NCBI GenBank assembly: GCA_023265175.1
Contig: JAHFUI010000006.1
Coordinates: 1-46,688, forward strand
DNA from: Acidobacteriota bacterium
GTDB taxonomy: Bacteria; Acidobacteriota; Vicinamibacteria; Vicinamibacterales; CAVVIG01
DNA: 46,688 bases
Direction of reading: 5' to 3'
Below are positions 4,894 to 45,764 of this stretch, one piece after another (positions within the stretch are counted from its first letter, which is position 1; each line of letters starts with the position of its first letter). The notes under the pieces are model-generated. The model ran no database searches, was not told the DNA's origin, and saw only the letters and a program-made list of their open reading frames with translations. The translations under genes were made by a program, and so were the position numbers.

Positions 4894-4922
4894 AACCACG
4901 ACGGACACAAAGGACACGAAGC
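4894..4922. repeat. Half copy (left arm) of the ACCACAAAGGACAC element
   Basis: The sequence AACCACGACGGACACAAAGG followed by ACACGAAGC matches the left arm of the dispersed inverted repeat described at 18524-18599, but no right arm follows. It lies in the 5' region of the subunit 3 gene, between it and the alpha/beta hydrolase gene. Confidence 0.75.
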
Positions 4923-4939
4923 AAATCCTCTCGGGCTCT

Positions 4940-7248: not shown

Positions 7249-8267
7249 ACCACATCTACTCTGGAACCACAAAGATCACGAAGAGCACAAAGGTGTCCTG
7301 GAGCTTGTGGCTTTGTGTTCTTTGTGTGCTTTGTGGTTCGATCGTTATCCTGCCAGCGCACGCCCAGCAGACAAATGAGATCCGCGTGACGAAGGTGCGC
7401 GAGCTTCTGTTTATGCTGACCGGCGCCGGCGGCAACATCGCGGCGTTGGTGTTCCCGGAAGGGATCACGCTCGTGGACAGCGGCCGCGCAGAGATGAGCG
7501 ACAAGGTGCTCGCGGCCGTCCGGATGCTGTCGCCGCTGCCGATTCGGTACATCATCAATACGTCGGCCGATCCTGATCACGCGGGCGGCAACGAGAAGCT
7601 CGGCGCGGCTGGCGGTCAGATCACCGGCGGCAACGTCGCCGGGCAGGTGGCCGATGCGGCGGAAGGGGCCGAGATCATCGCGCACGAAAACGTCCTCGAG
7701 CGTATGACGGCGCCCAGCGTCAAGCCGCCGATCCCGACTCGCATGACCCCCGGCACGACCTACCACGTCGATCACCTGAAGCTGAGCACGTTCTATCACG
7801 GCGACGGCATCGAGCTGTTCGCCGCGCCGGCGGCGCACACCGACGGGGATACGCTGGTGTACTTCCGGCACAACGATGTGCTCGCCACCGGCGATGTCTT
7901 CATGACGGCCAGCTATCCGGTCATCGATGTGGAGCGAGGCGGCGGCATCAACGGCGAGATCGACGCGTTGAACCACATCCTCGACGTAGCGTTTCCCGAT
8001 TTCAGGCTGGAAGGCGGCACGCTGATCGTGCCCGGGCACGGCCGGCTGTGTGACTCCGCCGACGTCGCCTACTACCGCGACATGGTCACGATCGTGCGCG
8101 ATCGGGTGCAGGACATGATGAAGAAGGGCATGACCGTCGAGCAGGTGAAGACGGCCAAATTGACCCGGGATTACGACGGCGTGTACGCGAAGAACGCCGG
8201 CTGGACGCCGGATATGTTCGTCGAGGCGGTCTACAAGAGCCTCAAGAAGTTAGAAGGCAAAAGGTAA
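7245..8267 (+). CDS. Secreted MBL-fold hydrolase with degenerate metal motif; signal peptide encoded by an intergenic repeat
   Basis: Metallo-beta-lactamase-fold protein of 340 aa. The leader (about 1-41) consists of a basic stretch TTKITKSTK, a hydrophobic core LWLCVLCVLCGSIVILPA and HAQ. Nearly all of it is encoded by a dispersed inverted repeat (7265-7338). Fold motifs: FPEGITLVDSG near 70, the HxHxDH position reading SADPDH (107-112), AAHTDGDTLVYF and ATGDVF in the middle, and VPGHGRLCD near 262. The first two histidines of HxHxDH are thus Ser and Asp, while Asp111-His112 and the later His residues remain. Zinc binding may be altered or mono-nuclear; the substrate is unknown. The start is fixed by the ATGA overlap with the preceding gene. 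It lies between two paralogous FSGEW proteins, apparently in one operon. Confidence 0.8.
   Translation: MNHIYSGTTKITKSTKVSWSLWLCVLCVLCGSIVILPAHAQQTNEIRVTKVRELLFMLTGAGGNIAALVFPEGITLVDSGRAEMSDKVLAAVRMLSPLPIRYIINTSADPDHAGGNEKLGAAGGQITGGNVAGQVADAAEGAEIIAHENVLERMTAPSVKPPIPTRMTPGTTYHVDHLKLSTFYHGDGIELFAAPAAHTDGDTLVYFRHNDVLATGDVFMTASYPVIDVERGGGINGEIDALNHILDVAFPDFRLEGGTLIVPGHGRLCDSADVAYYRDMVTIVRDRVQDMMKKGMTVEQVKTAKLTRDYDGVYAKNAGWTPDMFVEAVYKSLKKLEGKR
7265..7338. repeat. ACCACAAAG inverted repeat, copy inside a coding sequence
   Basis: The left arm (AACCACAAAGATCACGAAGA then GCACAAAGG, 7265-7293) and right arm (CTTTGTGTTCTTTGTGTGC then TTTGTGGTT, 7311-7338) are imperfect inverted copies, each with about 9-bp internal periodicity. 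This copy lies wholly inside the 5' end of the MBL gene and forms its signal peptide. Confidence 0.85.
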
Positions 8268-9066: not shown

Positions 9067-9100
9067 GGTCGATCGAGTGGTGGGCTTTTCAAGGCCGATC

Positions 9101-9173
9101 CACCACAAAGGACACCATGGACACAAAGGTCCAGACCGGTATTTTCTTTGTGTCCTTGGTGTCCATTGTGGTG
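9101..9173. repeat. ACCACAAAGGACAC inverted repeat, intergenic copy
   Basis: The left arm CACCACAAAGGACACCATGG then ACACAAAGG (9101-9129) and right arm TCTTTGTGTCCTTGGTGTCC then ATTGTGGTG (9145-9173) pair as a long imperfect hairpin. The copy contains AAAGGACACCATGG, a latent Shine-Dalgarno plus ATG, but that frame is not in frame with the tannase that starts at 9194. Confidence 0.9.
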
Positions 9174-9193
9174 AGTAGGCGGGAGCACAAGCG

Positions 9194-10747
9194 ATGCTGT
9201 CACGAGACTTGATTCGGCGGTACGGCTACTCCTGGTCGGTGGCCGCGTGTCTGGCGCTCCTGTGTGCGAGAGCCACGTTCGAGCCGACGCCGGTCAGCGC
9301 CGCTGCTTCCTGCGAGAGCCTCGCGTCGCTGGCGCTCCCGAACACGACGATCACGCTCGCCGAGTCGGTTCCCGCCGGCGGCTTCACACAACCTGGCGCG
9401 CGCGGCGGGCGCGGAGGCGTGGCGCAGAACGATCTTCCGGCATTCTGTCGCGTCGCCGCCACGCTGAAGCCATCGAGCGACTCCGACATCAAGATCGAGG
9501 TGTGGCTGCCGGCGTCGAACTGGAACGGGAAATTCCAGGCGGTCGGCAATGGGGGATGGAACGGCACGATCGGTTACCCGGCGATGATGACCGCGCTTCG
9601 GGCGGGCTACGCGACCAGCTCCACCGATACGGGTCACGTCGGCGGCAGCGCGGAGTTCGCGCTCGGCCATCCCGAGAAGGTGATCGACTTCGGCTACCGC
9701 GCCGTGCACGAGATGACCGTCAAGTCGAAGGGCATCATCGCCGCGTACTACGACAACCCCCTCAAGTACGCGTACTGGAACGGGTGCTCGGCGGGCGGAC
9801 GGCAGGCGATGAAGGAAGCGCAGAAGTTCCCGGCCGATTTCAACGGCATCATCGCCGGATCGCCGGGTCTCGACTGGAGCAGCCGCTCGGCGGGATCGAT
9901 GCGGATTGCGCAGGTGACCAGGGACGAGGCCGCGCGCGTGACGGCGGGCAAGGCGCAACTGATCCACAAGGCGGTGCTCGACGCGTGCGACGCTCTTGAC
10001 GGCATCAAGGACGGGGTCGTCGACGACCCGAAGCGCTGCAAGTTCGATCCGGGTGTGCTCGAGTGCAAGGGCGCAGACGAAGCGACGTGCCTGACGAAGG
10101 CGCAGGCGCAAACCGCGCGGATGATGTACATGTCGCCCGTGAACCCGAAAACGAAACGCGAGATCACCGGCCTCGAGCCGGGCAGCGAGCTCGGATGGAC
10201 CGACTTGGGGTGGTCGGCCGGGGCCCGCTCGGCCGGGCTCGATCAGTTCCGCTTCGTCGTGTTCAAAGATTCGAGCTGGGACGTGGACAAATTCAACTTC
10301 GAGACCGACGTCGTGCGGCTGGAAGAAGTCGACGACAACACGATCAACGCACTCGATCCGAACCTCAAGACGTTCTTCGACCGCGGCGGCAAGCTGATCC
10401 AGTATCACGGCTGGGCCGATCCGCAGATCTCGCCGGGCAACAGCGTCCAGTACTACAAGCGCGTCGCCGACACGAACGGAGGCGTCGCGAAAGTGCAGGC
10501 GTCGCACCGGTTGTTCATGGCCCCGGGCATGGCACATTGCGGCGGCGGAGAGGGACCCAACACGTTCGACATGGTGAGTGCGCTCGAGCAGTGGGTCGAG
10601 AAAGGCAAGGCCCCGGATCAGATCGTGGCATCGCACAGCACTCAAGGCAAGGTCGATCGGACGCGCCCCTTGTGCCCATACCCGCAGCTCGCGGCCTACA
10701 AAGGCACCGGCAGCACGGACGACGCGGCGAGCTTCGTGTGTAAATAG
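9194..10747 (+). CDS. Tannase/feruloyl esterase family protein, paralogue 1 (complete triad)
   Basis: Secreted esterase of 517 aa. The signal region ends near AAASCES, followed by the family start SLASLALPNTTITLAESVPAGGF and FCRVAATLKPSSDSDIKIEVWLP. The nucleophile motif GCSAGGRQ has Ser199 (codon at 9788) next to Cys198. The acid region is YHGWADPQISPG, and His448-Cys449 lie in GMAHCGGGEGP. The Cys-Ser and His-Cys pairs form the CS-D-HC arrangement known from tannases and feruloyl esterases, in which a disulfide ties the triad. Expected role: hydrolysis of galloyl or feruloyl esters of plant phenolics outside the cytoplasm. GGGAG about 9 nt upstream of the ATG supports the start. Two paralogues lie at 42422 and 44172. 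Confidence 0.9.
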   Translation: MLSRDLIRRYGYSWSVAACLALLCARATFEPTPVSAAASCESLASLALPNTTITLAESVPAGGFTQPGARGGRGGVAQNDLPAFCRVAATLKPSSDSDIKIEVWLPASNWNGKFQAVGNGGWNGTIGYPAMMTALRAGYATSSTDTGHVGGSAEFALGHPEKVIDFGYRAVHEMTVKSKGIIAAYYDNPLKYAYWNGCSAGGRQAMKEAQKFPADFNGIIAGSPGLDWSSRSAGSMRIAQVTRDEAARVTAGKAQLIHKAVLDACDALDGIKDGVVDDPKRCKFDPGVLECKGADEATCLTKAQAQTARMMYMSPVNPKTKREITGLEPGSELGWTDLGWSAGARSAGLDQFRFVVFKDSSWDVDKFNFETDVVRLEEVDDNTINALDPNLKTFFDRGGKLIQYHGWADPQISPGNSVQYYKRVADTNGGVAKVQASHRLFMAPGMAHCGGGEGPNTFDMVSALEQWVEKGKAPDQIVASHSTQGKVDRTRPLCPYPQLAAYKGTGSTDDAASFVCK

Positions 10748-10770
10748 ACGCATGGGTTTATTGCCGCACT

Positions 10771-10851
10771 GATCAAACACAAAGGACACGAAGGACACCA
10801 GGGGCCATACCGGTCTTATGCTTTGTGTCCGTTGTGTCCTTTGTGGTGATC
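10771..10851. repeat. ACACAAAGGACAC inverted repeat between convergent genes
   Basis: The copy is bounded by GATC on both ends (GATCAAACACAAAGGACACG ... TCCTTTGTGGTGATC) and sits between the stop codons of the convergent tannase (10747) and DUF5916 gene (10871). Here the long hairpin could act as a bidirectional terminator-like structure. Confidence 0.88.
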
Positions 10852-10870
10852 AGGCCGAGGCGTTGCCCGC

Positions 10871-15409: not shown

Positions 15410-15868
15410 ATGGGGATTCATTCGACCGCTGAGTCACCACAGAGGACACAAAGGGCACAAAGGAAGAACCGGCATAGGCTCCGACCTTTGTGTCCATGGT
15501 GTCCTTTGTGGTGCATCAGCGCTGCGATGATGGTGTTGCTCCTGACGGCGAGCGCATCAGCCCAGACGCCGGCGCCGCAAAACGCGGCGCCCGCCGGGAA
15601 CGCCGAGAACGGCAAGCGCTTGTTCACCTCGTATTATTGCTATGCGTGCCACGGGACCGTGGGACAAGGGGGCAGCGCCGGAGCGCGAATCGCCCCTCGG
15701 CCGATCGCGTACGCCGCATTGCTCCGCTACGTGCGGAAGCCGGCGGGTGGCATGCCGCCGTACACGAGCAAGGTCATCGCCGACCAGGAGCTGGCTGACA
15801 TTTACGCCTTTCTCCGATCGCTGCCACCGACCCCCTCCGCGCAGAGCATTCCGTTGCTGAACCAGTAG
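15410..15868 (+). CDS. Class I c-type cytochrome, monoheme
   Basis: Small exported cytochrome of 152 aa. A single heme-binding CYACH motif lies near residue 82 (GKRLFTSYYCYACHGTVGQGG). A likely axial Met occurs in KPAGGMPPYTSKV, and the C-terminal helix is DQELADIYAFLRSLPP. The ATG at 15410 has a strong GAGGTAGGGGG ribosome site overlapping the end of the ThDP gene, and the N-terminus then forms a signal: basic region RTQRAQRKNRHR, hydrophobic PLCPWCPLWCISAAMMVLLLTASASA. Most of this leader is encoded by the inverted repeat at 15435-15513. A start at 15527 would leave an n-region with no positive charge. Likely function: electron acceptor for the periplasmic dehydrogenases encoded nearby. Confidence 0.82.
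   Translation: MGIHSTAESPQRTQRAQRKNRHRLRPLCPWCPLWCISAAMMVLLLTASASAQTPAPQNAAPAGNAENGKRLFTSYYCYACHGTVGQGGSAGARIAPRPIAYAALLRYVRKPAGGMPPYTSKVIADQELADIYAFLRSLPPTPSAQSIPLLNQ
15435..15513. repeat. ACCACAGAGGACAC inverted repeat, copy inside the cytochrome leader
   Basis: The left arm CACCACAGAGGACACAAAGG then GCACAAAGG and right arm CCTTTGTGTCCATGGTGTCC then TTTGTGGTG form a long hairpin. It is preceded by TTCGACCGCTGAGTCA (15421-15436), which recurs exactly at 20300-20315 in front of another copy. It lies within the 5' coding region of the cytochrome c gene. Confidence 0.88.
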
Positions 15869-18516: not shown

Positions 18517-18523
18517 GCCGACT

Positions 18524-18599
18524 CACCACAAAGGACACCATGGACACAAAGATGAGACCACTAGGTTTGCGCCTTCGTGTCCTTGGTGTCCTTTGTGGT
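18524..18599. repeat. ACCACAAAGGACAC inverted repeat carrying SD, ATG and leader of the next gene
   Basis: The left arm CACCACAAAGGACACCATGG then ACACAAAG (18524-18551) and right arm CCTTCGTGTCCTTGGTGTCC then TTTGTGGT (18572-18599) form an imperfect hairpin with about 9-bp internal periodicity. The left arm contains AAAGGACACCATGG: AAAGGA (18530-18535), a 5-nt spacer, and the ATG at 18540 of the PQQ alcohol dehydrogenase gene. The right arm encodes its hydrophobic leader. Confidence 0.9.
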
Positions 18600-20291
18600 A
18601 GTTCAGCGTGGTTTTCCGCGTTGCTGCTGGCGCAGATCAGCACCTTCACGCCCATCACGAAAGCGATGCTCGAGAACCCGAGCCCTGACGACTGGCTGAT
18701 GTACAGCCGGACGTACGACGCGCAGCGCTTCAGCCCGCTGAAGCAGGTCAACCGCCAGAACGTCGATCGGCTCAAGACCGTGTGGACGCATGAGCTCGGC
18801 ATGGGGACCGTGGAGAGCATCCCGCTCGTGTACCGCGGCGTGATGTACGTGGTCGTGCCCGGCGCCGGTGTCCGCGCACTCGACGCGGCCAGCGGCGCCC
18901 TCGTCTGGGAATACAAGCGCGCGGGAAACGGCAGACCGAAGACGATCGCGATGTACGACGACCTCGTCTTCTATACCGCGCCGGACGGCACGCTCGTCGC
19001 GCTCGACGCGCGGAACGGTCAGGTGCGGTGGGAGACGAAAACCGCCGGTGGCGCGACCTCGGGGCCGATCGTCGTGGAAGGCAAGGTCCTCACCGGCCGT
19101 ACCTGTTCTCCGCTGCGCGCCAACTGCTACGTCTCGGCGCACGACGCGAAGACCGGCACGGAGGTCTGGAAATTCTACACGGCCGCCGGCGACGATGACC
19201 CGGGCGGCAAGACGTGGGGCGGTGCGCCGGAAGCGACGCGCGTCGCATCGACGTGGGGACTCCCCGGCGGCTACGATCCGGTTCGTCGTCTCGTCTACTG
19301 GGGCATTGCCAACCCGACGCCGAACACGCGCATGGTCCGCCACGGCGGTAATCCTGATGCGATCCCGACCTTTGCGCCGGCGGACTTGTACAGCAATTCG
19401 ACGGTCGCGCTCAATCCCGACACCGGCAAGCTCGTGTGGTACTACCAGCACCTGCCGGGCGACGATTGGGACGAGGACTACACGCACGAGCGCACGCTGT
19501 TTCGGACCGCGGTGAATCCGGATCCGAAGTCCGTGAAGTGGATCAACCCCGACATCCGCCGCGGACAGCAGCGCGACGTCATGGTGATGGTCGGAGAAGG
19601 CGGCGGCATGTGGGCGCTCGATCGCACGAACGGCCAGTTCCTCTGGGCGTCGCCGTTTCCCTACGACACGAAGAACTTCATCATCTCCAGCATCGACGTG
19701 AAGACCGGCATTCCCCATCTCAACACCGATCTGATCTTCAGGGAGCCGGGTCAACGGCACACGCTGTGTTACTGGAACACGCGCAGCTACTGGCCGTTGG
19801 CGTACCACCCGGGACAGAACGCGCTGTACGTGCCGTACGTCGACAACTGTCTCGATATGACGTCGCCGGTTCCCGCGACCAACGGTCAGCCCGCGAAGCC
19901 CGAGCGCCGCGCCGGCGTGCGGCGCTCCGGGATCGATCTCGAGGCCTTCGCGGGCGTGGTCAAGGTGAATATGTCGACCGGTGAGGCCAAGGTGATTTAC
20001 AGAGGACGCGCACCTGGGAACGGCGCGATGCTGGCGACGGCCGGCGACCTCGTCTTCTGGGGCGATCTCGACGGGAAGCTGCACGCATTCGATGCAGCGA
20101 GCGGGAAGATCCTCTGGGAAACGGCGTTGCCGGGAACGATTCAGAACAGCACGATCACCTACGCGGTGAACGGCAAGCAGTACGTGGCCGTGTTCACTGG
20201 CGAAGGGCTGCTGAGTGGCGGCCTCATCGAGCAAGCACAGATTCAGCCCACACGGCGTCACAACGCGGTGCATGTGCTTGCGTTACCGTAG
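18540..20291 (+). CDS. PQQ-dependent alcohol dehydrogenase-like quinoprotein
   Basis: Exported propeller of 583 aa, of the methanol/ethanol-dehydrogenase branch rather than the glucose branch. Features are DDWLMYSRTYDAQRFSPLKQ, the cysteine pair GRTCSPLRANCYVSAHD (this subfamily's counterpart of the vicinal disulfide), the active-site motif YQHLPGDDWDEDYTHER with the catalytic Asp pair, and Trp-docking repeats (ALDAASGALVWEYK, AFDAASGKILWET). The likely reaction is oxidation of primary or aromatic alcohols with PQQ and Ca or a lanthanide. The start sits inside an inverted repeat: ATG at 18540 (SD AAAGGA) or 18552. Either gives the leader RPLGLRLRVLGVLCGSS then AWFSALLLAQ, largely repeat-encoded. 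It is flanked by two glucose-dehydrogenase-like paralogues. Confidence 0.85.
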   Translation: MDTKMRPLGLRLRVLGVLCGSSAWFSALLLAQISTFTPITKAMLENPSPDDWLMYSRTYDAQRFSPLKQVNRQNVDRLKTVWTHELGMGTVESIPLVYRGVMYVVVPGAGVRALDAASGALVWEYKRAGNGRPKTIAMYDDLVFYTAPDGTLVALDARNGQVRWETKTAGGATSGPIVVEGKVLTGRTCSPLRANCYVSAHDAKTGTEVWKFYTAAGDDDPGGKTWGGAPEATRVASTWGLPGGYDPVRRLVYWGIANPTPNTRMVRHGGNPDAIPTFAPADLYSNSTVALNPDTGKLVWYYQHLPGDDWDEDYTHERTLFRTAVNPDPKSVKWINPDIRRGQQRDVMVMVGEGGGMWALDRTNGQFLWASPFPYDTKNFIISSIDVKTGIPHLNTDLIFREPGQRHTLCYWNTRSYWPLAYHPGQNALYVPYVDNCLDMTSPVPATNGQPAKPERRAGVRRSGIDLEAFAGVVKVNMSTGEAKVIYRGRAPGNGAMLATAGDLVFWGDLDGKLHAFDAASGKILWETALPGTIQNSTITYAVNGKQYVAVFTGEGLLSGGLIEQAQIQPTRRHNAVHVLALP

Positions 20292-20299
20292 CAATGATG

Positions 20300-20343
20300 T
20301 TCGACCGCTGAGTCAACACAAAGGACACGATGGACACAAAGGG
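20300..20343. repeat. Half copy (left flank plus left arm) of the ACCACAAAGGACAC element
   Basis: The sequence TTCGACCGCTGAGTCA (20300-20315, identical to 15421-15436) is followed by ACACAAAGGACACGATGG and ACACAAAGGG. No right arm follows. It lies 24 bp before the start of the next PQQ dehydrogenase gene, so that gene is read from its own leader. Confidence 0.8.
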
Positions 20344-32932: not shown

Positions 32933-33454
32933 TTAGAAGTTGACGGTTGCCGTGACCGTGTCGGCGTAGCTGCCGGCCGGGACGTCCTGGTTGCTGGTGA
33001 CCCGGCCGTAGACCGTGAAATTGCGCGCCGTCTTAGAAGGGGCGACCGCTGGCGTCAACAGCGCCGCGCCGGAATTGCCCCAGACCGTCGTCCGTCCGCT
33101 GTCCTGATACATTTCGTAGGTCAGGTAATTGCTCGATCCATCCGTCAGGCGTCGCGTGCTGCCGGACGCGTTGCTGCCCAGGTTGAGCCCGATGGTCGAC
33201 GCCGCGCCCTTGGTGCAGGTGATCGTCACCGTGCCGGTGCTATCGAGGTTGCTCGCGGCGTTGGCCACGACCGGGTCGTAGGCGCCGAAGGCGAGCGCCG
33301 CCGTGCTGATCGTGCAGTTGTTGGCGACCGACGCGCTCACGCTGAGGCTCGTGCTGGCTGACGCCGCCTCCGAGCGGACGCTGGTGACGCAGACGGCGCC
33401 GGCCAGCGCCGCGCCTGCCAGGGTTGCCGTGAGCGTCCGAGCTCGTGTCTGCAT
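32933..33454 (-). CDS. Spore coat U subunit, type X (copy A)
   Basis: Major-subunit candidate of 173 aa. The signal includes LAGAALAGAVCVTSVRSEA. The mature core is NNCTISTAALAFGAYDPVVA ... GTVTITCTKGAAS (the disulfide pair), then SNYLTYEMYQDSGRTTVWG, GRVTSNQDVPAGSYADTV and the terminal VTATVNF donor-strand-like end. By eye it differs from copy B (35450) at about eight of 173 residues, most of them in the signal peptide, so the pair is a recent duplication or is kept alike by gene conversion. The 97-bp gap to the type Y gene upstream holds a GC-rich hairpin. Confidence 0.88.
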   Translation of the reverse strand: MQTRARTLTATLAGAALAGAVCVTSVRSEAASASTSLSVSASVANNCTISTAALAFGAYDPVVANAASNLDSTGTVTITCTKGAASTIGLNLGSNASGSTRRLTDGSSNYLTYEMYQDSGRTTVWGNSGAALLTPAVAPSKTARNFTVYGRVTSNQDVPAGSYADTVTATVNF

Positions 33455-33510
33455 GACCTTGTCGACTGTAATATCTTTTCCGGGTCGAAGATGTCGCGTC
33501 GGGCCGAAAC

Positions 33511-33527
33511 CCGCCGCCCTGCGGCGG
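33511..33527 (-). terminator. GC-rich hairpin downstream of a type Y subunit gene
   Basis: CCGCCGC-CCT-GCGGCGG forms a 7-bp all-GC stem about 25 nt after the stop of the 33552 gene. On the minus strand it is followed by GGGTTTCGG, a weak T-run. A matching hairpin lies at the same distance after the 34843 gene. It may attenuate transcription between subunit genes. Confidence 0.4.
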
Positions 33528-33551
33528 CGGAATCCTGCTCGGAACGCGTGC

Positions 33552-34058
33552 TTAGAAGTTCACCGTGGCCGTCACGGTGTCCGCGTAGCTGCCGGCCGGC
33601 GAGTCCTGGTTGCTGGCGACGCGGCCGTAGGCCGTGAAGGCGCGCGCGGCTTTCGACGGCGCCGCCGCGGGCGTCTCGACATCGGCGCCGGTGCCCCAGA
33701 CCGTGGTGCGCCCGCTGTCCTGGTAGATCTCGTAGGTGAGGTAATTGCTCGAGCCGTCGGTCAGCCGCCGGGTGCTGCCCGTGGCGTTGATGCCAAGGTT
33801 GAGCGCGATGGTGGTCGCCGCGCCTTTGGTGCAGGCGATTGTCACCGTGCCGGTGCCGTCAAGGTTGCTCGCCGCGTTGGCCACGACCGGGTCGTAGGCG
33901 CCGAAGGCGAGGGCCGCCGTGCTGATCGTGCAGTTGTTGCTGATGCTGGCGCTCGACGCCAGCGTGGTGGCGGTCGAACCCGCGTGCACTGCGGTTCCCA
34001 CCAGTCCCACCAGTCCGAGTACCGCCGCCGCCGTTGCCGTCCGCGTTGTGCGTCGCAT
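33552..34058 (-). CDS. Spore coat U subunit, type Y (copy C)
   Basis: 168-aa subunit. The start ATG at 34058 is fixed by GAGGAG 7 nt upstream; a TTG at 34073 is part of that ribosome site. The signal region is AAAVLGLVGLVGTAVHAG. The mature part SISNNCTISTAALAFGAYDP ... GTVTIACTKGAATTIALNLG resembles type X but has IACTKG, EIYQDSGRTTVWGTGADVET and PSKAARAFTAYGRV as type-specific blocks. It is very close to copy D (34843). An 8-bp stem-loop (34077-34095) stands just before its ribosome site. Confidence 0.88.
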   Translation of the reverse strand: MRRTTRTATAAAVLGLVGLVGTAVHAGSTATTLASSASISNNCTISTAALAFGAYDPVVANAASNLDGTGTVTIACTKGAATTIALNLGINATGSTRRLTDGSSNYLTYEIYQDSGRTTVWGTGADVETPAAAPSKAARAFTAYGRVASNQDSPAGSYADTVTATVNF

Positions 34059-34076
34059 GTCTGTTCTCCTCAATAC

Positions 34077-34095
34077 CCTCCGCCTGTGGCGGAGG
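34077..34095 (-). promoter_or_regulatory. Conserved 5'-leader hairpin of a type Y subunit gene (copy C)
   Basis: CCTCCGCC-TGT-GGCGGAGG is a perfect 8-bp stem with a 3-nt loop, 18 nt upstream of the ATG and just before GAGGAG. The same stem with a changed loop (AGT) and the surrounding leader are found before copy D. It could modulate ribosome access or mark a processing or termination point between subunit genes. Confidence 0.55.
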
Positions 34096-34157
34096 TGGGC
34101 ACGAAAGTGACCGTCAGTTACCCGCCGCGTCGTGCCGACGGTGGGACTGCATGAAGC

Positions 34158-34178
34158 TTAGAAATTCACAGCCGCCGC
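34158..34178 (-). pseudogene. 3' tail of a lost type X subunit gene
   Basis: On the minus strand this reads ...GCGGCTGTGAATTTCTAA, that is ...AAVNF and a stop, followed by leader sequence homologous to that downstream of copy B. Its stop lies about 100 bp from the ATG of copy C, as the stop of copy B lies about 100 bp from the ATG of copy D. Only about five to seven codons of the subunit remain; the rest appears replaced by the HTH gene and AT-richer DNA. Confidence 0.45.
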
Positions 34179-34417
34179 GCGTCCTCGCTGCGTCCTGCCG
34201 CTAAACCTGCAGTGGCAGGGCGCTGCTGCTCGAGCCACGCATCCAAATCGCTTCGGCGAATCCGCCATTGGCGTCCGACTCGCACGGCCGGGAGCTCGCC
34301 GGATTTGATCAAACGATAAACGGTGCACGACTTGACCTCCAGATATACGAAGACCTCATCCGTCGCGAGGAAGGCTGGATGATTATGATGTCTTGTAAAG
34401 TTCGTTGATATGTCCAC
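34166..34417 (-). CDS. Excisionase-type helix-turn-helix DNA-binding protein
   Basis: 83-aa protein. FLATDEVFVYLEVKSCTVYR then LIKSGELPAVRVGRQWRIRR then SDLDAWL is a complete winged HTH_17/excisionase domain (helix-turn-helix followed by the VGRQWR wing). It starts with GTG at 34417. Such proteins act as recombination directionality factors or small regulators. It lies on the same strand as the fimbrial genes but in DNA of lower GC, and its 3' end overlaps the VNF tail of a former subunit gene. There is no complete recombinase beside it, so it is either a leftover of a mobile segment or a regulator captured by the locus. Confidence 0.8.
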   Translation of the reverse strand: MDISTNFTRHHNHPAFLATDEVFVYLEVKSCTVYRLIKSGELPAVRVGRQWRIRRSDLDAWLEQQRPATAGLAAGRSEDARRL

Positions 34418-34800
34418 GCTAGCACCATTGTAAATACGTTAATAGGACAACAAGAGACACTAATCTAATCTTGCGCGGCCTGTCTGTCAACAGCTTTTTT
34501 CGCTGCGCGTCTTGCCGCTACCATGCGTTCGATGGTGGAGAGTTTGACGTGTCAGGTTGGCTTCCATGTGACCGAGTAAAAGCAATCCTAGTACCATCCA
34601 ATAAGCACTATATCTTACAGGTACTTGCAGGAAATATCTGCCGTGAAACGACAAAAGCCATGGCCATGCCGCGATTGCTCCTACAAAAAATAGAGATGAG
34701 GGTGCGCCCACCGCGGGCCGAGACATGGCCAAGAAAGAGGCAGAGGAAAAGAGAAGGATTCAACAAAGCGCCACAGCGAGGGCCGCCGGCTCACTGAGCC
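34418..34800. other. Lower-GC intergenic segment in the fimbrial array
   Basis: About 380 bp, visibly richer in A and T than the flanking subunit genes (for example GTAAATACGTTAATAGGAC near 34431 and AGCACTATATCTTACAGG near 34605). I find no gene with a convincing ribosome site or family. An 81-codon minus frame contains LLLGHMEANLTRQTL but lacks recombinase motifs. The segment includes the likely promoter of the HTH gene and fills the space where the tandem array predicts a type X subunit gene. Confidence 0.5.
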
Positions 34801-34818
34801 CCGCCGCCGATGCGGCGG
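34801..34818 (-). terminator. GC-rich hairpin downstream of type Y copy D
   Basis: CCGCCGC-CGAT-GCGGCGG lies about 25 nt after the stop of the 34843 gene, at the same place as the hairpin at 33511-33527 after copy C. The flanking ACGCGTGCTTAGAAGTT is conserved too. The lack of a strong T-run makes termination uncertain. Confidence 0.4.
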
Positions 34819-34842
34819 CGGGAGCCCGCTGCGAACGCGTGC

Positions 34843-35349
34843 TTAGAAGTTGACGGTCGCCGTGACGGTGTCGGCGTAGCTGCCGGCCGGTGAGTCCTGG
34901 TTGCTGGTCACGCGGCCGTAGGCCGTGAAGGCGCGCGCGGCTTTCGACGGCGCCGCCGCGGGCGTCTCGACATCGGCGCCGGTGCCCCAGACCGTGGTGC
35001 GCCCGCTGTCCTGGTAGATCTCGTAGGTGAGGTAATTGCTCGAGCCGTCGGTGAGCCGCCGCGTGCTGCCCGAGGCATTGCTGCCCAGGTCGAGCGCGAT
35101 GGTGGTCGCCGCGCCCTTGGTGCAGGCGATGGTCACCGTGCCGGTGCCGTCAAGGTTGCTCGCCGCGTTGGCTACGACCGGGTCGTAGGCGCCGAAGGCG
35201 AGGGCCGCCGTGCTGATCGTGCAGTTGTTGCTGATGCTGGCGCTGCTGGCCAGACTCGCCGTCGCCGACCCCGCGCGCAGGTGCGCCGCCGTGCCGACCA
35301 AGCCCGCCACTACGCCAAGCACCGCCGCCGTTCGCATTCCGTGTCGCAT
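34843..35349 (-). CDS. Spore coat U subunit, type Y (copy D)
   Basis: 168-aa Csu subunit nearly identical to copy C in its mature part; by eye the visible changes there are in NLGINATGS/DLGSNASGS and GRVAS/GRVTS. The signal is AAVLGVVAGLVGTAAHLRAG. Start ATG at 35349 with GAGGAG 7 nt upstream; in-frame sequence beyond it is the leader. The Cys pair (NNCTIST, IACTKG) and terminal VTATVNF are intact. It follows copy B by 100 bp and is followed by the interrupted segment. Confidence 0.88.
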   Translation of the reverse strand: MRHGMRTAAVLGVVAGLVGTAAHLRAGSATASLASSASISNNCTISTAALAFGAYDPVVANAASNLDGTGTVTIACTKGAATTIALDLGSNASGSTRRLTDGSSNYLTYEIYQDSGRTTVWGTGADVETPAAAPSKAARAFTAYGRVTSNQDSPAGSYADTVTATVNF

Positions 35350-35367
35350 GTCCGTTCTCCTCACTAC

Positions 35368-35386
35368 CCTCCGCCAGTGGCGGAGG
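35368..35386 (-). promoter_or_regulatory. Conserved 5'-leader hairpin of a type Y subunit gene (copy D)
   Basis: CCTCCGCC-AGT-GGCGGAGG, the same 8-bp stem as at 34077-34095 with a different loop, 18 nt upstream of the ATG. The leader around it (GTGAGGAGAACGGAC, TTTCGTG, GACGGGTA) is shared with copy C, so leader and gene were duplicated as one unit. Confidence 0.55.
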
Positions 35387-35449
35387 TGGTCACGAAAGTT
35401 ACCGACAGATACCCGTCGCGTCATGCGACGGTGAGAGCAAGTGCCGACA

Positions 35450-35971
35450 CTAGAAGTTCACGGTCGCCGTGACCGTGTCGGCGTAGCTGCCCGCCGGGAC
35501 GTCCTGGTTGCTGGTGACCCGGCCGTAGACCGTGAAATTGCGCGCCGTCTTAGAGGGGGCCGCCGCTGGCGTCAACAGCGCCGCGCCGGAATTGCCCCAG
35601 ACCGTCGTCCGTCCGCTGTCCTGATACATTTCGTAGGTCAGGTAATTGCTCGATCCATCCGTCAGGCGTCGCGTGCTGCCGGACGCGTTGCTGCCCAGGT
35701 TGAGCCCGATGGTCGACGCCGCGCCCTTGGTGCAGGTGATCGTCACCGTGCCGGTGCTATCGAGGTTGCTCGCGGCGTTGGCCACGACCGGGTCGTAGGC
35801 CCCAAAGGCCAGCGCCGCCGTGCTGATCGTGCAGTTGTTGGCGACCGAGGCGCTCACACTGAGGCTCGCGCTGGCCGACGCCGCATCCGATCGGACGCTG
35901 GTGACGCAGACGGCGCCGGCCGCTGCCGCGCCCGCCAGAATTGCCGTGAGGATCCGCGTCCGTGTCTCCAT
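35450..35971 (-). CDS. Spore coat U subunit, type X (copy B)
   Basis: 173-aa Csu subunit, first structural gene of the fimbrial array. Signal LAGAAAAGAVCVTSVRSDA; mature core as in copy A with NNCTISTAALAFGAYDP, TITCTKGAAS, TVWGNSGAALLTPAAAPSK and terminal VTATVNF. The ATG at 35971 follows the stop of the GGDEF-EAL gene by only 7 bp, so it must be read from the same transcript, although no clear ribosome site is seen in the end of that gene. Confidence 0.88.
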   Translation of the reverse strand: METRTRILTAILAGAAAAGAVCVTSVRSDAASASASLSVSASVANNCTISTAALAFGAYDPVVANAASNLDSTGTVTITCTKGAASTIGLNLGSNASGSTRRLTDGSSNYLTYEMYQDSGRTTVWGNSGAALLTPAAAPSKTARNFTVYGRVTSNQDVPAGSYADTVTATVNF

Positions 35972-41988: not shown

Positions 41989-42421
41989 GTGTACCTCCCG
42001 CGCAGAACCATCCAGACATCTTCTAAGGCCCGAATCGTGACAGATGATATAAGTTTTTGCCGGCGCGCCTTAGAAGCTGTCTTAGGCCCCGCTTCGCGGG
42101 GCAACGGTGAAACATTGGCGTTTCTACAGCGAAGGTGCGCGTGGGCCGCCTTCCGTTCTCGACGGTTTGAGGCGCAGCTTCGCTGGGAGCCCGTCCGAGT
42201 ATGCCGAAACGGGCTCCTAGTAGGCGCGCCCCGCACGCGGTCATTCAAGATCATTGGCGTTCTTGCCGGCGAAGCCGATCTACTAGGAGCGTGTTCCGGT
42301 TTCTCAGACACGCTCCTAGCATCGCGGGTATTCTACTGTGAGCGGCGGCCACAATTTCATACAATACGGCTCCGTCGCCGTCTCCGACCATCCGTGTTCG
42401 GTGCACATGAGGAGAGAATCG
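41989..42421. other. Divergent intergenic region with two hairpins
   Basis: This 433-bp gap lies between the divergent PQQ dehydrogenase and tannase genes. I see no gene. It holds a 7-bp stem hairpin GCCCCGC-TTC-GCGGGGC (42086-42102), a GGCTCCTAGTAGG stretch (42210-42222), and the long hairpin at 42283-42319. Both promoters must lie here. ATGATATAAG near 42045 could be a -10 element for either strand; no consensus -35 is evident. Confidence 0.6.
42283..42319. repeat. 12-bp perfect inverted repeat CTAGGAGCGTGT
   Basis: CTAGGAGCGTGT (42283-42294) and ACACGCTCCTAG (42308-42319) are exact inverted copies with a 13-nt loop, about 100 bp upstream of the tannase ATG. The nearby GGCTCCTAG at 42210 repeats part of an arm. 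Possibly the remnant of a small REP-like unit or an operator. Confidence 0.7.
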
Positions 42422-44062
42422 ATGCGTCCAGCCACGCTCGCGGCGCTACTGAGTGTTCTCGTTCTTCGTGCCACGCCCGCCGCTGCGGCGTCGTGTGAGA
42501 ATCTCACCTCGTTGTCGTTGCCGAACACGACGATCACGGCCGCGCAGTTGGTCGCGGCCGGGGCGTACGTACCGCCCGCCCCGCCCGCAAGGGCCGGTGG
42601 ACCCCGCGCGGGCGGAGCGAACGCGCCCGTCGAGAATGGCCGCGCGGGCGCGCCGGCAGGACGGGCGGGTGGCGGCCAGGGTCGGGGCCCGCAGTTCGCC
42701 GATCTGCCCGCCTTCTGTCGCGTGAGCGCGACGCTGAAGCCGAGCAGCGACTCCGACATCAAGATTGAGCTCTGGATGCCGGCCTCCGGATGGAACGGCA
42801 AGTTCGTCGTGCCGGGCAACGGAGGCTTCGCCGGTGCGATCGCTCCCGCCGGTCTCGCCACCGCGCTTCGGAGCGGCTATGCGGCGGCGACGACCGACAC
42901 CGGGCATGAAGGCGGCAGCGGCAGCTTCATGCTCGATCATCCCGAGCGACTGACCGATTTCGCCGACAGAGCGATTCACGAGACGACGACCAGGAGCAAA
43001 GCGATCCTGACGGCGTTCTACGGCAACGGTCCAAAGCTGTCCTACTTCAACGGCTGCTCGACGGGCGGCCGGCAGGCCCTGACCGCCGCGCAGCGTTTCC
43101 CCGACGACTTCGACGGCATCGTTGCCGGCGCGCCGGCGATTTATGCGTCGCGCCAGTCGGCCGGACAGATTTGGATCTGGCAGGCGACGCACAAGGACGC
43201 GGCGAGTTACCTCACGCCGGACAAGTTGACCGTGCTTCACGACGCGGCGGTCGCCGCATGCGACGCCCTCGACGGCGTGAAAGACGGCGTGCTCGAAGAT
43301 CCCACGCGCTGCAAGTTCGATCCGAAAGTCGTGCAGTGCAAGGACGCGGACCCTTCAACAAGCTCAGGGTCGCCCCGAGCGCAGTCGAGGGGCGACGGCC
43401 CCGGCTGCCTGAGCGCCGCGCAGGTGGAAGCGGCGCGGAAGATTTACACGGGCGCGAAGAACCCGCGGACCGGCGAGCAGATCTTCTCGCCGCTGTTTCC
43501 CGGCAGCGAGCTGGGGTGGGCCTCATCGGCCGGCGCGCAACCGGTCGGCTACGCCCTGGATGTCTACCGGTATGTCGTCTTCAAGGACCCGAAATGGGAC
43601 CCGCTCGCGCTCGGCTACGACGCCGATATCGCCAGGGCTGACAAGGTTGTCGGTCAGCTCACGGCCATCGATCCCGATCTGACGAAGCTGCTGCGGCACG
43701 GGAAGCTGCTCATGTATGCGGGGTGGAGCGACCCGGGGATCCCGCCCGGCTATTTGCCCGAGTACTACAAGAACGTGCTGGCGAAGACGAACGTCAAGAA
43801 CGTGCGCGACGCGGTTCGTTTGTTCATGGTGCCCGGCATGGGGCACTGCGGCGGCGGCGATGGAACGAGCACGTTCGACATGCTCGGCGCACTGAATCAG
43901 TGGGTGGAGACCGGAAGGGCCCCGGGCTCCATCAACGCGTCACGTGTGAAGGACGGCGCGGTGGACCGCACCCGTCCGCTCTGCCCGTACCCGCAGGTGG
44001 CGACGTACAAAGGAAGCGGAAGCACCGGCGAGGCGGCGAACTTCGTTTGCAAAGCGCCCTGA
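42422..44062 (+). CDS. Tannase/feruloyl esterase family protein, paralogue 2, with in-frame repeat insertion
   Basis: Secreted esterase of 546 aa. The ATG at 42422 is preceded by AGGAGA about 6 nt upstream; signal LAALLSVLVLRATPAAA. After SCENLTSLSLPNTTITAAQL there is a Gly/Ala/Pro/Arg-rich stretch (about 55-95). The nucleophile motif GCSTGGRQ has Ser213 (codon at 43058) beside Cys212, and the His-Cys end reads GMGHCGGGDGTSTFD, so the CS-D-HC triad is complete. Within the family's KFDPxVxxC...C segment this copy has 15 extra residues (PSTSSGSPRAQSRGD and neighbours) encoded by a 45-bp palindromic repeat. Predicted to cleave plant phenolic esters. Confidence 0.9.
   Translation: MRPATLAALLSVLVLRATPAAAASCENLTSLSLPNTTITAAQLVAAGAYVPPAPPARAGGPRAGGANAPVENGRAGAPAGRAGGGQGRGPQFADLPAFCRVSATLKPSSDSDIKIELWMPASGWNGKFVVPGNGGFAGAIAPAGLATALRSGYAAATTDTGHEGGSGSFMLDHPERLTDFADRAIHETTTRSKAILTAFYGNGPKLSYFNGCSTGGRQALTAAQRFPDDFDGIVAGAPAIYASRQSAGQIWIWQATHKDAASYLTPDKLTVLHDAAVAACDALDGVKDGVLEDPTRCKFDPKVVQCKDADPSTSSGSPRAQSRGDGPGCLSAAQVEAARKIYTGAKNPRTGEQIFSPLFPGSELGWASSAGAQPVGYALDVYRYVVFKDPKWDPLALGYDADIARADKVVGQLTAIDPDLTKLLRHGKLLMYAGWSDPGIPPGYLPEYYKNVLAKTNVKNVRDAVRLFMVPGMGHCGGGDGTSTFDMLGALNQWVETGRAPGSINASRVKDGAVDRTRPLCPYPQVATYKGSGSTGEAANFVCKAP
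43351..43395. repeat. 45-bp palindromic repeat inserted in frame in the tannase gene
   Basis: CCCTTCAACAAGCTCAGGGT ... CGAGCGCAGTCGAGGGGCGA is an imperfect palindrome of the widespread type ending in TCGAAGGG/CCCTTCGAC. Relative to the two paralogues, which have seven residues between the two Cys of this segment, this copy has 22, exactly 15 codons more. Confidence 0.8.
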
Positions 44063-44065
44063 CAA

Positions 44066-44157
44066 CAATTGCAGGATGGCAGGATTGCAGAATGGCAGGA
44101 AGTAAAGTTCCTGCCTTCCCTTCCTGCAATCCTGCCATTCTGCAATTCTGCAATCTT
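44066..44157. repeat. GCAGGATG 8-bp-periodic inverted repeat between tannase genes
   Basis: The left arm has units GCAGGATG, GCAGGATT, GCAGAATG, GCAGGAAG (44071-44102). The right arm (about 44119-44157: TTCCTGCAATCCTGCCATTC then TGCAATTCTGCAATCTTG) is its inverted counterpart. It fills almost the whole gap between the two tannase genes and could form a long hairpin in the transcript. Confidence 0.85.
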
Positions 44158-44171
44158 GTAAGGGGGGTCAC

Positions 44172-45764
44172 ATGAGCAGGAAGCTTCTGCTGGTTTGCGT
44201 CCTGGCGCTGGCGGCGCTGTCCCTTCGTGCGCAACCGGCCGCCGCGGCGACGACGTGCGAGAACCTGACGATGTTGTCGCTGCCGAATACGACGATCACG
44301 CTGGCGCAGCCGGTCGCTGCGGGAGCGTTTACGCCACCACCAGCCCCGGCTCGCGGCGGAGCCGGCGGCGGCGCGCCCGCTGCCGCGCAGGCTGCTCCCG
44401 GACGGGGGAGAGGGCCGCAGTTTGGCGATCTGCCGGCTTTCTGCCGCGTGCAGGCGGCGTTGAAGCCGTCGAGCGATTCGGACATCAAGATGGAACTATG
44501 GATGCCGGTGGCCGCGAGCTGGAATGGCAAGCTGCGCGGGACGGGCAACGGAGGTCTGGGCGGCGGCGCCGCCGTCGGCGCGGGCGCGCTCGCGAACGGG
44601 GTCCGGCTTGGTTACGCGACGACCGGCAACAACACCGGCCACGAGGGCGACTCGCGCTACGCGATCGATCATCCCGAAAAGATCAAGGACTTCGGGTATC
44701 GTGCGGCCCATGAGATGACCGTCGCGGCGAAAGCGCTCATCAAGGCGTATTACGACAAGGGTCCCACCTATTCCGTGATGGCGGAAGGCGGCGGCGGCAC
44801 GATCGCGGCGCTCAGTTCGGCGCAGCGGTACCCCGAGGACTACGACGTCATTGCCGTCACGGGCATGTCGTCGTACCTGACGCGTCACACCTTCGGCCAG
44901 ATGTGGTACTGGCAGTCGACGCACAAGGACGCGGCGAGCTTCATCCCGCCGGATAAATACGCGGTCCTTCACGAGGCGGCGCTCAATCGGTGCGACGCGC
45001 TGGACGGCCTCAAGGACGGGATCATCGGTGACGTGGAGCACTGCAAGTTCGACCCTGGCGTGATCCAGTGCAAGGGCGCTGAAGCGCCGGCCTGCCTCAC
45101 GAGTCCGCAGGTCGACGCGGCGCGGAAGATTTACGCAGGTCCGATCAATTCGCGCACCAAACAGGAAATCTACTCGCCGATGTACCCGGGCAGCGAGCTC
45201 GGCTGGGGGCAACTGGCGGGCGGCGACACTCCGCTCGGCATTCCGGTGGAGTTCTTCAAGTACTTCGTGTTCAAGGATCCGAACTGGGATTACAAGACAC
45301 GTCCGGTGGATTTCGACACCGACACGGCCCTGGCCGACAAGCCGGACATCCAGCCGGTCAACGCCGTCGACCCCGATCTCAAGAAGTTCTTCGCGCGCGG
45401 CGGCAAGCTGCTGCTCGTGGACGGTTGGGCCGACACGGCCGTCCCGCCAAAGGTCGCGATCAACTACTACAAGAACGTCGTCTCGAAAACCGGCGCGAAG
45501 GCGGTGAAGGAATCGATGCGTTTCTTCATGGTGCCCGCGATGGGCCACGGCCCGGGCACCAACGGCGCGGAGAACATCAACTTCGACGCGCTCAGTGTGA
45601 TCGAATCGTGGAAGCAGACCGGGAAGGCGCCCGATCAGTTGATTGTCGATCACTACAAGAACGGCGTGCAGGTGGGGAAGCGGCTCGTGTGTCAGTACCC
45701 GCGGGTTGCGACATACAAGGGAAGCGGGAACACGGAGGATCCGGCGAGCTATACCTGCAAGTAG
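44172..45764 (+). CDS. Tannase/feruloyl esterase-fold protein, paralogue 3, nucleophile and disulfide cysteines missing
   Basis: Secreted protein of 530 aa; signal LLLVCVLALAALSLRAQPAAA, strong ribosome site AAGGGGGG. It aligns with paralogues 1 and 2 over the full length (TTCENLTMLSLPNTTITLAQ, KPSSDSDIKMELWMP, KFDPGVIQCKGAEAPACL). The nucleophile segment, where the others have NGCSxGGRQ, reads SVMAEGGGGTIAAL (about 201-214), with neither Cys nor Ser. The His end reads AMGHGPGTNG instead of GMxHCGGGEG, so the partner Cys is gone too. Asp (DGWADTAVPP) and His remain. The frame is intact and the gene does not look decayed. It is therefore probably a pseudo-esterase with a binding or regulatory role, or one using a different mechanism. 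Confidence 0.85.
   Translation: MSRKLLLVCVLALAALSLRAQPAAAATTCENLTMLSLPNTTITLAQPVAAGAFTPPPAPARGGAGGGAPAAAQAAPGRGRGPQFGDLPAFCRVQAALKPSSDSDIKMELWMPVAASWNGKLRGTGNGGLGGGAAVGAGALANGVRLGYATTGNNTGHEGDSRYAIDHPEKIKDFGYRAAHEMTVAAKALIKAYYDKGPTYSVMAEGGGGTIAALSSAQRYPEDYDVIAVTGMSSYLTRHTFGQMWYWQSTHKDAASFIPPDKYAVLHEAALNRCDALDGLKDGIIGDVEHCKFDPGVIQCKGAEAPACLTSPQVDAARKIYAGPINSRTKQEIYSPMYPGSELGWGQLAGGDTPLGIPVEFFKYFVFKDPNWDYKTRPVDFDTDTALADKPDIQPVNAVDPDLKKFFARGGKLLLVDGWADTAVPPKVAINYYKNVVSKTGAKAVKESMRFFMVPAMGHGPGTNGAENINFDALSVIESWKQTGKAPDQLIVDHYKNGVQVGKRLVCQYPRVATYKGSGNTEDPASYTCK

Follow-up and report, generated by a model that had tools for sequence, protein, structure and literature searches.

A palindromic repeat inserted in frame in a cysteine-bounded loop of a tannase-family gene from an Acidobacteriota genome

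The stretch of DNA analyzed here (the window; 46,688 nucleotides) is contig 107 of a draft assembly of 4.92 Mb that is 97% complete. Positions 42422 to 44062 (+ strand) encode a 546-residue member of the tannase/feruloyl esterase family (PF07519), according to both its Pfam match (375 bits against a cut-off of 29.8) and residue homology. The hallmarks of this family, i.e., the GCS[TA]GG motif, the catalytic aspartate and histidine, and the conserved cysteine pairs, were all found in the predicted product. By homology to the S225-D492-H528 triad of MHETase (PMC6461665), the catalytic residues were assigned to Ser213, Asp437, and His475, which are all kept along with the C212-C476 cysteine pair. 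The catalytic motifs are thus intact, as first described, and point to an active-type enzyme. A tandem paralogue lies directly downstream (44172 to 45764, + strand), in which the catalytic serine is gone (GCSTGG replaced by GGGGT) and both cysteines corresponding to the active-site C212/C476 disulfide are missing; it is likely a pseudoenzyme kept beside the active-type copy. The interval between the two tandem genes (44060 to 44170) holds an imperfect 41-bp inverted repeat with a 29-bp spacer. A third paralogue is found at 9194 to 10747 (+ strand).

The active-type gene differs from both paralogues in the segment CKFDPKVVQC-[22 residues]-CL. As stated in the original prediction, 22 residues separate the invariant Cys306 (codon at 43337 to 43339, + strand) from the invariant Cys329 (codon at 43406 to 43408, + strand), versus seven in the insert-free CX7C loops of the tandem copy (KGAEAPA) and of the third paralogue (KGADEAT). 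Relative to all homologues, this corresponds to a net insertion of 45 bp, or 15 codons (43351 to 43395, + strand; CCTTCAACAAGCTCAGGGTCGCCCCGAGCGCAGTCGAGGGGCGAC), which adds the peptide PSTSSGSPRAQSRGD at residues 311 to 325 while keeping the reading frame and all conserved cysteines. Since the GAC at 43349 to 43351 is found again at 43394 to 43396, any 45-bp window starting between 43349 and 43352 leaves an identical empty site, and the placement carries a 3-nt ambiguity. According to the consensus of the repeat family to which it belongs, the whole element is 48 bp long (43349 to 43396, + strand), runs from GAC to GAC, and joins two related hairpin units as an inverted dimer. The palindrome initially delimited as exactly 45 bp therefore has the correct net length, but it is one of several equivalent windows onto a slightly longer element. 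The suggested search for a target duplication did reveal the flanking GAC, but because this trinucleotide also ends the family consensus, no target duplication can be claimed. Removing the insert from the protein joins CKDAD to GPGCL, which restores a loop of the typical kind. The closest homologue recovered by protein-similarity search was 60% identical and no close orthologue was found, so the empty site was compared at the protein level rather than at the nucleotide level; in this comparison, the insert was absent from all homologues.

We then considered how constrained this loop is across the family. Both of its cysteines are invariant in an alignment of 45 tannase sequences, and the loop could be read in 194 of 210 tannase DNA segments: 147 had seven residues, 36 had eight, and 11 had more, i.e., 183 of the 194 carried seven or eight. 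The Cys340-Cys348 disulfide of MHETase, with its seven-residue spacing, belongs to a set of five disulfides that are conserved across the family (PMC8540959, PMC7568301). By order and spacing, C306 and C329 correspond to this pair, and the other four are matched by C25/C99, C212/C476, C280/C297, and C521/C543, so that C306 and C329 would be expected to form a disulfide. An AlphaFold2 model of the protein (mean pLDDT of 88) matches FaeB and MHETase at Z scores of 36 to 43, and the enzyme shares with MHETase and AoFaeB the fold, the catalytic triad, and the five cysteine pairs, including the CX7C pair. Unlike MHETase and the aligned solved structures, in which the loop has 7 to 10 residues, the loop of this tannase has 22. 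Apart from the signal peptide and the N-terminal linker, pLDDT fell below 50 only within residues 311 to 325; the structure modeling proposed earlier thus places the insert as a predicted disordered stretch in an otherwise confidently modeled enzyme.

The inserted DNA belongs to a family dispersed in this genome. The pattern CTTCRACnnRCTCAGG has 12 copies at zero mismatches (11 exact plus the tannase variant), and a two-arm 39-nt pattern retrieved eight exact dimers in the 4.92 Mb, compared to none with the reversed control; about 15 repeat units were counted overall (control, 0). For comparison, the chance expectation for the 18-mer with up to three mismatches is 0.01 in the window. Hairpin unit 1 (43349 to 43371, + strand) pairs GACCCT (43349 to 43354) with AGGGTC (43366 to 43371) and carries the conserved core TTCRACnnGCTC, and the inverted unit 2 (43369 to 43396, + strand) pairs GTCGCCCC (43369 to 43376) with GGGGCGAC (43389 to 43396), with covarying base pairs. 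In an alignment of 12 dimers (eight from this genome and four from relatives) over 45 to 48 bp, the cores TTCGACnnGCTC and CGAGCnnnGTCGA were nearly invariant, stem cells were paired in 98.4% of cases with far lower values in slid controls, and three pairs of the two-hairpin form were changed on both sides, giving a covariation score reached by 0 of 500 shuffles. A long single cruciform, which showed no covariation beyond chance, was rejected as the conserved structure. The palindromic character of the element held up in folding, with the 48-mer reaching −21.1 kcal/mol as RNA (z = −2.8); the fold was modest as DNA (z = −1.8) and not significant in a 76-nt context (z = −0.44). Relatives carry from 0 to 142 copies of the family, with 69 in the repeat-rich genome G011. 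No Rfam family matched the repeat region, and no paper in the literature searched matched the repeat's own sequence.

These counts bear on the alternative of a chance palindrome, ordinary loop-length variation, or an assembly error. Chance hairpins do occur in high-GC coding DNA and some homologues vary slightly in loop length, yet eight exact dimers against none in the control, together with the conservation of the frame and of every conserved cysteine, leave this explanation almost no probability; a chance palindrome or ordinary loop variation is refuted by the repeat family and by the census of seven- and eight-residue loops. The original prediction of an in-frame repeat insertion in an active-type tannase is therefore supported by a family repeated in the genome, homologues that lack the insert, and catalytic residues that are kept.

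The repeat had also been described as being of an intergenic type. Its dispersal is as described, but its location is not, since about 8 to 10 of the 12 best copies in this genome lie inside reading frames, which is roughly what random insertion into a gene-dense genome would be expected to produce. Copies lie directly ahead of the domain in a nitroreductase frame, ahead of the catalytic domain in an RNase E/G frame, within the domain of a PDDEXK nuclease, between two stretches matching ERAP1_C in a peptidase M1, within Anticodon_1 of isoleucyl-tRNA synthetase (IleRS), in the N-terminal linker of a DUF1800 protein, and between domains of a xanthine-dehydrogenase-type protein. The last six are found in frame in loci L003, L004, L006, L008, L011, and L013 (element near 1501). 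Of four further copies, two may belong to C-terminal tails and two adjoin gene starts. The repeat unit is open in five of its six frames.

Insertions in other tannases of the same order, probably Vicinamibacterales, were found in the same loop; the related genomes are likewise from Acidobacteriota. In approximately 299 kb of tannase coding sequence, motif scans detected eight REP-type insertions, which account for eight of the long loops and are all in the loop equivalent to C306-C329, and the same scans found no REP elsewhere in these 299 kb. All eight genes came from sets drawn by protein similarity, so the sample was not selected by its loop. Five carry a repeat with the TCGAC core, namely the window tannase, G116:C23 (CTPSTSLRAGNDESAC), G116:C239 (CKAPSTPLGASGPPESC), G005:C3 (CRAPSTGSGQAADDPTC), and G014:C88 (CPSTTSGQASRDDATC). 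The other three carry an unrelated GGGTC...GACCC hairpin, two of them in tandem tannases of L087 (TGTAGTGAGGGCCGGGTCCTTCCGGACCCGGC and TGTGGAGGAAGCCGGGTCCTCTCGGACCCGGC) and one in a tannase of G050 (CGTAGAGGCGGGTCTTTAGACCCGCC); this hairpin has 45 copies in the L087 genome and 24 in that of G050 (control, 0). In L087 (4472 to 5962 and 3001 to 4473) and in L260, a GTAG or GTGG comes ahead of the REP hairpins, which start at or beside the first loop cysteine codon. Neither the sequence nor the length of the inserts is constant, with lengths of 21, 24, 45 bp, and others. Removal of 24 bp from the G005 gene gives CRAADDPTC, compared to CKAADEPSC in its sister, which represents a clean empty site. 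Distant orthologues having the same loop with unrelated DNA, which would have spoken against a repeat insertion, were not found as such; long loops of this kind turned out to be other palindromic repeats inserted at that place. When 162 genomes of the order were scanned with the loop as the target, no further TCGAC-type case came up, and a phylum scan gave no additional tannase inserts outside the order. Three sets of matches were discarded: in other tannases, those to TTCGACGCGCTCA around residues 440 to 470 reflect native FDAL[ST] codons; the gene that matched the hairpin pattern in G142 is no tannase; and the L062 hairpin is a native GFEPGSE motif.

The shared position raises the question of a single ancient insertion that has since diverged. 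When the tree was computed with the loop left out, the genes bearing TCGAC units were scattered and had insert-free sisters, and G005 and G014 fell into one poorly resolved clade of nine genes; these two may go back to a single insertion, and the two L087 genes to a single duplication. Most sister genes carry no insert, which indicates that no fewer than five or six of the events were independent. A common origin would suit the use of one loop and the G005-G014 clade, but it is very improbable given that large insert-free clades separate the other inserted genes, that insert-free sisters are largely seen for inserted genes in separate clades, that two unrelated repeat families are involved, and that every insert matches multicopy repeats of its own genome. 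Under a rough model that allows inserts at only one position in ten, the probability that five events would share one loop is approximately 5e-4.

The reading that best accounts for the insert, its repeat family, the protein-level empty site, and the recurrence, to which we give a probability of roughly 0.8, is that a REP-like element was inserted in frame, survived in a tolerant loop closed by a disulfide, and that the same loop was hit independently by two families. An inverted dimer of the hairpin unit (core TTCGACnnGCTCA), scattered in the genome, would have entered the tannase gene. It may spread as single-stranded hairpin DNA through a Y1/HUH-type or other enzyme, none of which was seen in the assembly. 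As for the mover, no PF01797 gene (RAYT/Y1 transposase) was found in this assembly or in G011, which is not proof of absence because the present assembly is 97% complete; a RAYT was nevertheless rejected, as copy number among the relatives was not clearly linked to it either. Purifying selection would then leave only in-frame inserts, in a loop isolated from the fold by the disulfide, and the extra Ser/Gly/Pro/Arg-rich residues of the lid-domain loop would do little harm and be near-neutral for catalysis. Survival would thus follow from a 45-bp length that keeps the frame and from a peptide that falls within a loop closed by a conserved disulfide. Having been hit independently by this repeat family and by an unrelated one, this loop would act as a recurrent acceptor site, or "safe harbour."

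Two alternatives were also considered. The DNA around the first cysteine codon could be a preferred target of the spreading machinery, i.e., a DNA-level hotspot, as might be suggested by the confinement of all eight tannase REPs to one loop. The most length-variable loops of the family, near residues 52, 348 to 361, 444, and 468, contain no recognizable REP, and tolerance alone is therefore not explanatory. However, the insertion points lie anywhere between 0 and about 5 codons past the first cysteine, the flanks differ with no evident common target word, and two unrelated families are involved; the variable insertion points and flanks favor tolerance over sequence targeting, which we consider unlikely. 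Somewhat less probable still is an adaptive loop, in which the encoded peptide altered the exported tannase in its substrate binding, its stability, or its surface contacts and was then selected. Recurrence across several lineages would agree with this, as would the role of the lid domain in determining the substrate specificity of these enzymes (PMC6461665), but the peptides are unlike in sequence and length, the insert is predicted to be disordered, and similar inserts occur in unrelated genes such as those for IleRS and RNase E/G. The proposal that the repeat generated protein novelty stands only in the sense of added sequence. It is possible, but doubtful, that unrelated REP families are mobilized time and again into the C306-C329 loop of Acidobacteriota tannases as a genuine hotspot for insertion, whether through targeting or through selection; in that case, selfish repeats would be a source of diversity in the lid of this family of exported esterases.

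Among known systems, REPINs are inverted REP dimers moved by RAYT, and REPs are mainly extragenic. The tannase element resembles REPINs in its two related inverted units, covarying stems, and dispersed copies, but it differs in its abutting units with almost no spacer, its low copy number, the lack of a detected PF01797/RAYT gene in the genome, and its preponderance in reading frames. Judged from its sequence, the insertion is RPE-like: it keeps the frame of a conserved gene, homologues lack it, and the catalytic residues are still in place. RPEs, through which protein-coding palindromes are mainly known, are short palindromes found in frame within preexisting ORFs of Rickettsia, with peptides in solvent-exposed areas (PMC3767692). 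The tannase-loop repeats share this organization but are 21 to 48 bp long and found in Acidobacteriota, compared to 100 to 150 bp in Rickettsiales. Whether different RPEs near one site reflect a hotspot or one diverged insertion is debated and was left open (PMC3767692); here, a hotspot is favored over the latter because unrelated families share the loop while sister genes are insert-free. GTAG/CGTC-tagged REPs are likewise small palindromes found inside ORFs, where they frequently form dimers that encode 20 to 30 amino acids (Di Nocera et al. 2013, PMC3733652); they strike tRNA synthetases and RecB-type repair genes, the CGTC class has no known transposase, and CGTC REPs have an unpaired tag beside an 8- to 9-bp stem with a 4- to 5-nt loop (PMC3733652). 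The present family similarly strikes IleRS and a PDDEXK nuclease but, by their definition, is distinct in having 11- to 12-nt loops, abutting stems, and no unpaired tag, and the three GGGTC...GACCC hairpins, with GTAG or GTGG before the stem, do resemble that class. Different REPs have been reported at about the same recB site in two Xanthomonas species. In-frame REPs as such are thus already known from Rickettsia RPEs and from Di Nocera et al. (2013), and repeated colonization of one disulfide loop by unrelated families is undescribed as far as the literature was searched. With unrelated repeats in one loop and sister paralogues retaining the empty site, the choice between a hotspot and a single insertion becomes directly testable, and the tannase/feruloyl esterase/MHETase family offers solved structures and simple assays for this question.

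Other repeats are present in the window. A REPIN-like hairpin pair (42186 to 42217 and 42286 to 42316; GGAGCCCGT...ACGGGCTCC and GGAGCGTGT...ACACGCTCC) lies directly upstream of the tannase gene and belongs to a family with 90 palindromic genome copies (control, 0), which frequently come in pairs about 100 bp apart. Direct repeats of 300 nt are also present, with four diverged copies spanning 32934 to 35750. A separate palindromic family, CCACAAAGGACACCATGGACACAAAGG and its complement, forms facing pairs in places and is found at 4895 to 4924, 7310 to 7346, 9094 to 9181, and 10764 to 10856, with further copies at 15431 to 15521, 18517 to 18608, and 20306 to 20342.
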